54,274 nucleotides of DNA from Chloroherpeton thalassium (lineage in GTDB: Bacteria > Bacteroidota > Ignavibacteria > Kapaibacteriales > UBA2268). Below are positions 2,996 to 43,611 of this stretch, in pieces. The translations under genes and the position numbers were made by a program. Numbering within the stretch: the stretch's first letter is position 1; each line of letters starts with the position of its first letter. Where the stretch lies: assembly GCA_020722095.1 (NCBI GenBank), contig DYLM01000008.1, forward strand, positions 1-54,274, read 5' to 3'. The notes beneath the pieces were generated by a model that saw only the letters and a list, made by a program, of their open reading frames with translations, was not told the DNA's origin and made no database searches.

Positions 2996-3799
2996 ATGCA
3001 AATTACTTCTTTTGAAACAATTGAAGGGCGTAAACTCCTCAAACAAATTTACTTTGAATTGAAGTTTCAAAAAACAATTAATAGTTTTAGTATGCTTTTT
3101 ATTATGTGGAGAATTATAGTTAATAAAAACAATCTCCACAAATATTTAGAAATTGATGTTGATATTTCTTATTCTTTAGGTGTGATAAAAGGCACTTTTC
3201 TTTGGATAGAGGAAGTGTTTATTCGCTATTATTTCACTGTTCTCAACGCATTAGTTTATTTTGGAGCGGCGATTCTTTTATTATTAGTTGGGCTTAGGAA
3301 ATTCAGCAATTTAATTAGTGATACAACAGTGATTATGGGCTTTGCTTTGGAAGCCTCGCTATTGATAATGATGTTTATATTTTTATTATTTAGTCCAAAA
3401 GATGACTTGATAGAAGAAATACAAGGTTCTCAATCCACAAGTGCCGATAGCGAAGAATTGATAAATGAAATCGGCGAAATTGCCCGTGATTTTGCAGATG
3501 CTTCATTAAAATTAGGTTATATCAATCAAAATTTAGCAGAAATTCATCAAAGCCAGAAAATGATGATTAATCAATTATCAGAATTAACCAAGAATTTTAG
3601 CAAATTGGCTTCGCCAAATGATGAAATGTTGCAAGTAATGCAATCAACAAACCAGCAATTATCAAGTTTTGAGCAACACATTGAATCATTAAACAAACAA
3701 TTATCAGTAATTCAAAGTTCCAACATTGAATTTGAAGTTAAAAAGCAAGTTCAAGAATTTCTAACAAGTAAACTAATCGATGAAAAAGCCGCAAAATAG
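2996..3799 (+). CDS. GldL/PorL-like inner-membrane motor subunit
   Basis: 267 residues. Two membrane helices lie at about residues 80-101 (ALVYFGAAILLLLVGLRKF) and 111-132. The second contains a buried glutamate (E119, in GFALEASLLIMM) and is followed by FSPKDDL. This is the pattern I recall for GldL/PorL: helix 1 with a GAA motif, helix 2 with LLTEA-type Glu, then a proline/acidic turn, then a long coiled coil (here about residues 150-265). GldL forms the pentameric proton-driven ring that powers type IX secretion and gliding. The N-terminal 78 residues before helix 1 are longer than usual and start-site choice is uncertain (in-frame GTG codons lie downstream). It overlaps the GldM-like gene by 20 bases. 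The assignment is by pattern; no search was run. Confidence 0.6.
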   Translation: MQITSFETIEGRKLLKQIYFELKFQKTINSFSMLFIMWRIIVNKNNLHKYLEIDVDISYSLGVIKGTFLWIEEVFIRYYFTVLNALVYFGAAILLLLVGLRKFSNLISDTTVIMGFALEASLLIMMFIFLLFSPKDDLIEEIQGSQSTSADSEELINEIGEIARDFADASLKLGYINQNLAEIHQSQKMMINQLSELTKNFSKLASPNDEMLQVMQSTNQQLSSFEQHIESLNKQLSVIQSSNIEFEVKKQVQEFLTSKLIDEKAAK

Positions 3800-5252
3800 C
3801 AAAAAAACAATAGAAATTTACTTCATTTTGTATTTGGCTGCCTTGGTGCTGTTGATACCCGATTTGGAACAGAAAAATGTCCAAACTACTGATCAATCCA
3901 GCACAAACTATAATATTTTTAAAATATATCCCGACAAAACAATTTTGAATGCCAAAATCACTTTGGATAGCAGTGGCTCAAAAGTGATGAGTTTGGATTC
4001 GTTAAATTTGATTTATTACACTGGCGATGTTAGTTCGATTGATATTTCATTTCAAATTATAAACAAGAAATTGGGGCAATTTATCAATATTGATAATTCC
4101 GAAAATTCATTTAATTTCATAAAATTCAGAGAAGTTCCCGACATTTCGGCTTTTGCTTTTTGGTGGCATCCACCAATTTTGGATAAGCGAAATTACATTT
4201 TAGATGTAAAAGCCAAAGCCAAAGCATTGGTGCGGGTCAAAGATGGCAATCGCACAAAATTAGTTAATATGGAAGCACAAACGCAATTTAGTTTGATTGT
4301 AAGTTATTATGACCAACAAAGTGGAATGCCTTACTTTGTAGCACTCACAGACACCGCTACAAACAACACTGATTCGATTTTCAATAGTTTATTTGTGCAG
4401 AATTATTCCGATATTTATTTAGATTTTACCGAAAGAAAGGTAAAAAGTCTAACAACCGAAGAATGGGAAAATAAATTAAATGTATTTGGAGTGAATTTAA
4501 ATACGGAATTAAGCCATAAACCTAACATTAGTATTTCTAATTCACCCGAAAATAATCTTGGCAGCGTTTATATTAAATCAATTTCAAATAATTCCATTAC
4601 TCTTGCGGGCAAAACTCCTCAATTTGGTCAATCTAAAGTAAAAGTGAAATTAACTCGAAAGAATGACGGCGCCTCGTACGAAGATGAATTCATTATAAGT
4701 CCAATGCCAATTATGGAGCCAATTTATTCCTCTCAAATTCAACCAAATCAGAAGTATAAAATTGACCCAAATTTTCCTGAGTTGAACAATAAATCTTATT
4801 TTGTTAAGATTTTTGCAGACGAGAAAGTGCTGTATTCATCAAGCAATATTGCTCCGTTCAATTTTTCGGTAGACGAAACATATACCAATAAAACAATTTA
4901 CTTTGAGCGTTATATCAATGGCAAATTATATGGCAAGACCTATAATATTTATGTAAAGCCATTCCCAGTTCCACAAATTGTGAAAATTCAAACTATAAGC
5001 AATAACAAATTAAGAATGGTTGTGAATACTTTTGGTAGCATTAACGGCAGAGAAAATTACGTCAAATCAGTGGAAATAAGTGGCAATGCAAATTACAAAG
5101 AATTGCTCGGACAAGCCTCAAGCAATAAAGATAATTTGATTTATACACAAATATTCGAAATAACGCCCAACGACAGCAACAAAGATTTTAAATTTAAAAT
5201 TAGAGTGCAAGACCAAAAAAAGCAATGGTCAAATTGGACAGAATATCCATAA
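3780..5252 (+). CDS. GldM/PorM-like periplasmic motor subunit
   Basis: 490 residues, close to the usual GldM length. A short basic N-terminus is followed by one membrane helix (about residues 11-27, IYFILYLAALVLLIPD) and a large beta-rich extracytoplasmic part with several repeated Ig-like segments (for example around residues 260-310, 315-400 and 400-490). This matches GldM/PorM, which spans the periplasm and couples the GldL ring to the outer-membrane GldKN ring. Start overlaps the GldL-like gene, indicating translational coupling. gldK and gldN are not next to it: the following gene is an HDOD protein on the other strand. Sequence identity to known GldM is probably low, so this rests on architecture and the partner gene. 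Confidence 0.55.
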   Translation: MKKPQNSKKTIEIYFILYLAALVLLIPDLEQKNVQTTDQSSTNYNIFKIYPDKTILNAKITLDSSGSKVMSLDSLNLIYYTGDVSSIDISFQIINKKLGQFINIDNSENSFNFIKFREVPDISAFAFWWHPPILDKRNYILDVKAKAKALVRVKDGNRTKLVNMEAQTQFSLIVSYYDQQSGMPYFVALTDTATNNTDSIFNSLFVQNYSDIYLDFTERKVKSLTTEEWENKLNVFGVNLNTELSHKPNISISNSPENNLGSVYIKSISNNSITLAGKTPQFGQSKVKVKLTRKNDGASYEDEFIISPMPIMEPIYSSQIQPNQKYKIDPNFPELNNKSYFVKIFADEKVLYSSSNIAPFNFSVDETYTNKTIYFERYINGKLYGKTYNIYVKPFPVPQIVKIQTISNNKLRMVVNTFGSINGRENYVKSVEISGNANYKELLGQASSNKDNLIYTQIFEITPNDSNKDFKFKIRVQDQKKQWSNWTEYP

Positions 5253-41988: not shown

Positions 41989-43611
41989 ATGAAAAGTGCA
42001 ATAGTTGTTGTCCTTGCATTTTATTTTTCGACATTTAATTTGTTATCTCAAGATTATAATAAATATTTAAAATTATACTATAATTTTAATAATGAAAATT
42101 GCTATGATGTTTCTGGTAATGGGCTTAATGGCACACCAGTTAACAATCCAACTTACATTGATGATGGAATAGAAGGTAAAGCAATTAGTTTTCAAGGTAA
42201 AGGTTATTATATAGATTTAGGCTCGGACGTTTCTGCAATTGGTTCTCATGTATTAATTCCATCTATTAACTTTCATGAATGTGGTGAATTTACCCTAAGT
42301 CTTTGGGTTCGTTACAGAGAATTATCTCATATTGCAGGTGAAACTTTTATTTCTTTTGGAAATCATTCTTATGGTTGGTTGGGCATTTTCAACAGTTCAA
42401 TTATAGATTATCAAGAAAATAAGCAACTAATATTTACTGCAGGCGGACATTTTTGGGATAATGTTTTTTACACTGATTTTGATCGAGTTAAAGAATTTAA
42501 TAAATGGAATCATTACGTATTAACATACAAAAATGAAGTTTTAAAAATATACATAAATGGAAATTTTATCGGTTCTTCAATTCATAAATTAGATGTCTAT
42601 GAAAATACCGCAGCACTTGCAAGGCATTGGTGGTATTATGATACTGATAGAACTTCTGCTCGCTTCACTGGCGATATGGACGAAGTGATGATTTTTTGTA
42701 AGGCATTGACAGATGATGAAGTTAAAGATTTATTCCATCCTTGCCAAAAGCCAGATGCCGAAATACTTTCATCTGATAATTATATTTGTGAGGGAGATAC
42801 TGTAACTTTGAGGCTATCCAAAAACTTTAAAAATATACTTTGGAGCACAGGCGAAACAAGTGATTCAATAAAAGTGACTCAATCTGGAAATTATTCTGTT
42901 CGCTATTATGACGAATCAAATTGTGTAGGCTATGATATCATTAATGTGCAGTACAACGGTGAAAACTATTTCTCCTACTCAATTTCAGAAAATAAAAAAG
43001 ATGTGCAATTTGATTCAGTTGGATACTCGCAAATGAAGTGTTTGCCAATAACAATTACCAATATTAGCGATAAAGAAAGAGTATTAGATTATGCTCATTT
43101 GCTTTTTAATTTAGAGTTCTCGTTGCCACCAAGCCAATTACCAATCACAATTCCACCAAAAAGTAATGTTGAAATATTAGTTTGCTTAACTCCAAACAGA
43201 TTAGGTTTAATTCGGGATACTTTGATTTTGGAAGATAATTGTAGTAGCCACCGAATACCACTCGAAGGCATAGGCAGTCCAAACCACTATCAAGCATCGT
43301 CAAATTGCCAAGTAATATTAACGAGCGAAACAATTGATATTGTGAATGGAGGATATTTGGGGATTGCACCATATTATGATGAACGAATGGAGCAATTGCA
43401 ATTGGTGTTTTCGGGCAAAAGTGCATCAAATTCACAATTACAAGTAAGTATTATTGATAATTTGGGGCAGTTGATAAAGTCAGACCAAATTGCGAGTAAT
43501 TCAATATCTGGAAATTATACCATTGAATTAAATGATTTACAAAGTGGAATGTATATTGCCAAAATTGAATATCTGAACAATATTCTAATTTATAAATTTA
43601 TGAAATTTTAG
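41989..43611 (+). CDS. secreted LamG-domain protein with type IX sorting domain
   Basis: 540 residues. Signal peptide MKSAIVVVLAFYFSTFNLLS. LamG/concanavalin-like domain at about 20-250 (YYNFNNENCYDVSGNGLNGT, DGIEGKAISFQGKGYYIDLG, FTLSLWVRY, WNHYVLTYKNEVLKIYINGN, DEVMIFCKALTDDEV). An Ig/PKD-like domain at 255-330 (ICEGDTVTLRL, ILWSTGETSDSIKVTQSGNY). A beta domain, then a T9SS type A sorting domain in the last 75 residues (LQVSIIDNLGQLIKSDQ, LQSGMYIAKIEY). It should be exported by Sec, passed through the outer membrane by T9SS and anchored at the surface or released. Binding target unknown. Confidence 0.88.
   Translation: MKSAIVVVLAFYFSTFNLLSQDYNKYLKLYYNFNNENCYDVSGNGLNGTPVNNPTYIDDGIEGKAISFQGKGYYIDLGSDVSAIGSHVLIPSINFHECGEFTLSLWVRYRELSHIAGETFISFGNHSYGWLGIFNSSIIDYQENKQLIFTAGGHFWDNVFYTDFDRVKEFNKWNHYVLTYKNEVLKIYINGNFIGSSIHKLDVYENTAALARHWWYYDTDRTSARFTGDMDEVMIFCKALTDDEVKDLFHPCQKPDAEILSSDNYICEGDTVTLRLSKNFKNILWSTGETSDSIKVTQSGNYSVRYYDESNCVGYDIINVQYNGENYFSYSISENKKDVQFDSVGYSQMKCLPITITNISDKERVLDYAHLLFNLEFSLPPSQLPITIPPKSNVEILVCLTPNRLGLIRDTLILEDNCSSHRIPLEGIGSPNHYQASSNCQVILTSETIDIVNGGYLGIAPYYDERMEQLQLVFSGKSASNSQLQVSIIDNLGQLIKSDQIASNSISGNYTIELNDLQSGMYIAKIEYLNNILIYKFMKF

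Follow-up and report, generated by a model that had tools for sequence, protein, structure and literature searches.

Descriptions of the type 9 secretion system (T9SS) come almost entirely from Bacteroidia, where the system has a single GldLM motor and a ring of GldK and GldN. The window (the whole 54,274-nucleotide stretch of DNA analyzed here) comes from a genome that belongs to Candidatus Kapabacteria, and near its start lie two overlapping genes that an earlier note, made from the sequence alone, read as a GldL/GldM-like motor pair standing apart from any gldKLMN locus. Is this pair, here called L and M, a GldLM motor, and if so, is it the only one that the cell has? The reading to which we give a probability of roughly two-thirds (0.68) is that L-M is a GldLM-class proton motor, the second and stand-alone one in Kapabacteria, beside a paralogous L'/M' motor.

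The L-M gene pair and its predicted anatomy

The open reading frames are those that had been noted (2996-3799 and 3780-5252, both +, encoding 267 and 490 residues and sharing 20 bases). The features of the pair are as follows.

2996..3799, + strand: L, putative GldL-like ring subunit, 267 aa (ORF; 52/54 family genomes; hhalign to canonical GldL)
3780..5252, + strand: M, putative GldM-like axle subunit, 490 aa (ORF; 51/54 family genomes; hhalign to canonical GldM D2-D3)
3780..3799, + strand: overlap of the L and M genes, 20 bp (ORF coordinates; overlap usual among relatives)
2996..3229, + strand: L residues 1-78, N-terminal region not in canonical GldL, predicted helical (invariant residues; model helices 9-25 and 30-42)
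3239..3307, + strand: L transmembrane (TM) helix 1, about residues 82-104 (Y88, G90 and A91 do not vary; R101/K102 lie close to where GldL has K27)
3320..3388, + strand: L TM helix 2, residues 109-131 (AlphaFold model)
3350..3352, + strand: codon of L Glu119, at the aligned position of E49, which is essential in GldL (invariant in 58/58, and also across L, L' and canonical GldL)
3437..3793, + strand: L C-terminal helical/coiled-coil part, residues 148-266 (model; hhalign places it against the coiled coil of GldL)
3813..3860, + strand: M TM segment (EIYFILYLAALVLLIP), residues 12-27 (invariant residues; model helix 13-24)
3921..4313, + strand: M periplasmic domain 1, residues ~48-178, predicted beta (AlphaFold model)
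4416..5249, + strand: M periplasmic beta domains 2-4, residues ~213-308, ~320-398 and ~399-490 (model; domains 2-3 align with GldM D2-D3)

AlphaFold models, built from alignments of 58 homologues for L and 56 for M, agree with the anatomy that the earlier note had proposed: for L, two helices with a glutamate in the second, a P-x-DD turn and a coiled coil; for M, one N-terminal helix and a large beta-rich part. In the model of L, helices 62-103 and 109-131 contain the two TM segments, of which the second carries Glu119; TM2 is followed by S-P-K-D-D (133-137) and then by long helices at 148-205 and 209-266. M is predicted to have a single N-terminal helix (13-24), with the rest folded almost entirely into domains of beta strands (mean pLDDT 85); the limits of domains 2-4 and the number of domains were judged from the strand pattern. 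Conservation is strict at key positions: Glu119 is invariant in all 58 sequences of L, and Y14, F15, L17 and Y18 of the M TM segment are invariant in the 56 homologues. The extra 78-residue N-terminal region of L, which had also been noted, is real. G11, R12, G62, G66 and E73 are invariant in the 58 homologues, ruling out a mis-chosen start as the source of the extension, and the region is conserved like the TM part. It presumably lies on the cytoplasmic side of the membrane.

Kinship with canonical GldL and GldM

Canonical GldL and GldM alignments were taken from the loci of 30 Bacteroidota genomes. L aligns with GldL at an hhalign score of 43.9 over 152 columns (reversed, 22.2; best of 30 column shuffles, 21.3), and M aligns with GldM at 37.4 over about 164 colinear columns in GldM D2-D3 (reversed, 19.6; best of 30 shuffles, 20.8). 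The pairwise E-values are moderate (5e-6 for L-GldL, 4e-4 for M-GldM), and both signals are retained in random subsets of 7-8 sequences. A chain of matches also runs through sister families, on the L side (L-L_f48, 2e-30; L-L_f7, 2e-10; L_f7-GldL, 1e-4) and on the M side (M-M_f10, 2e-44; M-M_f48, 1.5e-11; M_f48-M'_f48, 3e-28). When L, L' and canonical GldL are aligned together, full invariance is confined to two columns, the glycine of TM1 (G90) and the glutamate of TM2 (E119). The proposed GldLM kinship is thus upheld by profile-profile matches of both partners, by the invariant TM2 Glu, and by the sister-family chain.

Like the GldL/GldM (PorL/PorM) motor of T9SS and gliding in Bacteroidia, L is a predicted two-TM ring protein with a TM2 Glu and a coiled coil, M is a single-TM partner with about four periplasmic domains, and the two genes are adjacent. 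There are also differences. Canonical GldL lacks the 78-residue N-terminal region. In GldL of F. johnsoniae, E49 is an essential residue, whereas E59 is required for gliding alone (PMC8986121); the position equivalent to E59 is Ser or Thr in 54 of 58 L sequences, but the alignment has a 4-residue length difference, so the register there is uncertain. The D1 domain of F. johnsoniae GldM is helical (PMC5790014), whereas domain 1 of M is predicted to be beta. Finally, L-M has no gldK or gldN neighbors, its genome has a second GldLM-like motor, and the curated GldL model TIGR03513 does not detect it. That model matches neither L nor any other protein of its genome or order, although 61 genomes elsewhere in the phylum draw do match it.

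Other searches gave little. No Pfam or NCBIfam family model names L or M, and a PDB sequence search returned only coiled-coil noise for L (GldL 7sau among it, E 5.9) and nothing for M. The GldN model PF19841 matched in 0 of the 54 family genomes, a weaker absence, as no control genome matched that model either. With Foldseek, the GldLM chain 7sax_D ranks fourth for the L monomer (47 columns, 2.2 A, E 4.5, not significant), and M matches generic multi-Ig strings, with no GldM among the matches listed. The predicted structures thus lend weak support to the kinship, and the case for GldLM rests on profiles, anatomy and gene order. By analogy, the two-component layout also recalls the 5:2 proton motors ExbB/ExbD, TolQ/TolR and MotA/MotB; L-M differs from these in having no match to their families in the Pfam or NCBIfam scans and in carrying its acidic residue in the ring protein, as GldL does. 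Judged by sequence and anatomy, L-M is a putative GldLM-class motor.

Distribution and gene neighborhood of L-M

Within the family of the window, L is present in 52 and M in 51 of 54 genomes. M is also found in 20/20 genomes of the order and in one further genome of the class, and nowhere else in the phylum draw; L reaches the same-class families f10, f48 and f54 as well. A tblastn search found no homologues of M in phages. After clustering, 53 of 65 loci have an M-type gene immediately after L; counted more loosely, the gene downstream of L overlaps it in 52 of 71 cases. This layout is far beyond chance. No other gene is kept beside L-M as regularly as L and M are kept beside each other, and no gldK- or gldN-like genes adjoin them; the pair is a two-gene unit across the order, stand-alone as had been proposed.

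In 26 of the 65 loci, the gene immediately before L encodes an LptF/LptG-type permease; the window lacks this neighbor. By eye, this neighbor is seen in several families of the order (e.g. at locus L244, 14297-15376, -), and one case was checked with Pfam. At 150-696, two small ORFs of the window (113 and 99 aa) overlap each other and resemble a toxin-antitoxin pair by eye.

A second GldLM-like system

L profiles also match two longer proteins of about 330 and 454 aa in most genomes of the order, and the number of L-type matches per genome is mostly three. These L' proteins share the two-TM core (pooled L' vs L, 5e-13). Those of the window's own genome are encoded at L051 (8762-9745, -) and L257 (7695-9065, +), on contigs C25 and C206, and have extra N-terminal TM segments; by eye, the two (~330 and ~456 aa) have a MotA-like four-TM layout.

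A candidate partner family became apparent from the sister families f48 and f54, in which the genes form an operon L-M-L'-M'-X-Y; M and M' of f48 are homologous. In a wider draw of 70 genomes from the order, a profile of the sister-family M' matches a protein of ~720-780 aa in 68, and an improved M' profile detects M' in all 20 of the order genomes in which M had been found; both systems thus occur in each of those 20 genomes. The match between Kapabacterial M' and sister-family M' lies largely in the TM segment. M' is wider in the class than M, being present also in f6, f7, f11 and f12, where M was not found. The matches in f6, f7 and f11 fall in short open frames (~190-320 aa), which suggests that splitting may be common; one GldM-like protein of f11 appears to be divided between a TM part (205 aa) and a periplasmic part that is exported on its own (357 aa; L229, 7818-10178, -).

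In Kapabacteria, the M' gene heads an operon M'-X-Y-Z, in which Z is a VWA + OmpA protein. The operon of the window's own genome lies on contig C97 (L262, G000:C97, 3860-10788, -) and encodes an M' of 763 aa. Its X and Y have no Pfam matches, although X and Y of Kapabacteria match X and Y of the sister families. X, Y and Z gave no match when set against canonical GldN and GldK.

L'-M', for which no description was found, belongs to the same superfamily as L-M, with GAA...G.R in TM1 and the TM2 Glu in L', and a YFxLYL TM segment in M'. It differs in the extra N-terminal TM segments of L', in the length of M' (~750 aa), and in its operon partners X, Y (barrel-like by eye) and Z. A Glu inside the M' TM segment is invariant in 11 homologues. 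L' may pair with M'; with three L-type proteins to two M-type ones, this pairing is tentative.

The idea that L-M is the sole GldLM pair of its genome was dropped once M' was found, and the genomes seem to have two GldLM-class motors, of which the window pair is one. The earlier note had suggested a second motor and a genome search for another gldLM. That search found M' and the extra GldL-like proteins, together with sprA in 52/54 family genomes; the suggestion stands, with the correction that no usual gldKLMN locus encodes the other motor. The note had also called the window pair divergent from such a locus. The pair is a very divergent GldL/GldM relative, but the M'-X-Y-Z system is more divergent still. 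At matched sample sizes, median scores against canonical GldLM are 46 and 36 for L-M, vs 19-27 for L' and 25 for M'; by sequence, L-M is the nearer relative.

The probable link to T9SS

The cell has a T9SS cargo in the window, as the earlier note had claimed:

41989..43611, + strand: T9SS cargo with a C-terminal sorting domain (PF18962, Por_Secre_tail, 28.0 bits, cut-off 27)

Across the own genome, a search for sorting domains gives 84 matches at E <= 0.001. In genome G027 the M'-X-Y-Z operon follows SprA, and three families (f3, f45 and f47) have a PorU-type C25 peptidase next to L'. These ties concern L' and M' more than L-M, which is tied to the T9SS through a run in f45 (LptFG-L-M-L'-PorU) and through the f48/f54 operon. 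No order genome was found that keeps the T9SS yet clearly lacks L-M, so the tie of L-M to the T9SS rests on gene neighborhood. From this context, L-M most likely serves the T9SS.

In the phylum draw, SprA is present in 190 of 247 genomes and the canonical GldL model matches in only 61; TIGR03513 therefore passes over most lineages that have a T9SS but lie outside its home group. Searches of the open-licence literature turned up no account of GldLM in Kapabacteria.

Weighing the explanations

In the two-motor reading, a ring of L, with its two TM helices and a proton-carrying Glu119, would surround the TM helices of an M dimer, and the string of about four beta domains of M would carry force across the periplasm. 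The second motor would consist of L' proteins and M', and both motors would serve T9SS or cell-surface machinery. Here we infer a 5:2 assembly and the use of protons. Could L and M instead belong to an unrelated membrane family and only resemble GldLM, L as a coiled-coil protein with two TM helices and M as a string of Ig domains? The missing HMM family match, the spurious matches that a coiled coil yields and the non-significant monomer Foldseek result would fit; nevertheless, both partners independently match the GldL and GldM profiles, in the same gene order and with the Glu at the homologous place, and shuffled or reversed controls score about half. We regard this as very improbable.

Another explanation makes L-M a diverged GldLM orthologue and the T9SS motor of Kapabacteria, with L'-M' driving something else. 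L-M is indeed closer to canonical GldLM than L' and M' are, M has about the size and domain number of GldM, and canonical GldL was not found in the order. However, L-M is mostly alone, whereas L' adjoins PorU in three families and M' adjoins SprA in one genome; in addition, M' is wider in the class than M, in genomes with SprA. This makes the orthologue explanation unlikely, if still a serious one. Repurposing, in which L-M has left the T9SS to power another envelope process such as LPS export or surface transport, appears improbable: the frequent LptF/LptG-type neighbor and the failure to find gldK or gldN speak for it, but that neighbor is not universal and is missing in the window, the f45 run goes on into L' and PorU, and f48/f54 have L-M in the same operon as L'-M'. 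The two-motor reading can be extended to a broader picture, held tentatively and at somewhat less than even odds, in which Kapabacteria and some sister families have one T9SS/surface machine with two GldLM-class proton motors and no recognizable GldK/GldN ring, X/Y/Z being in its place.

Implications

Here a whole order has SprA and many T9SS cargos but no recognizable GldL or GldN, and seems to have two diverged GldLM-type motors instead. Two such motors would account for the failure of model-based surveys to detect the motor beyond Bacteroidia. Their natural variants (the N-terminal region of L, the beta-rich first axle domain, and the Glu in the M' TM segment) may serve as probes of what holds the ring in place and of how force is transmitted. 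They also raise a testable question: are there separate motors for secretion and for surface movement?
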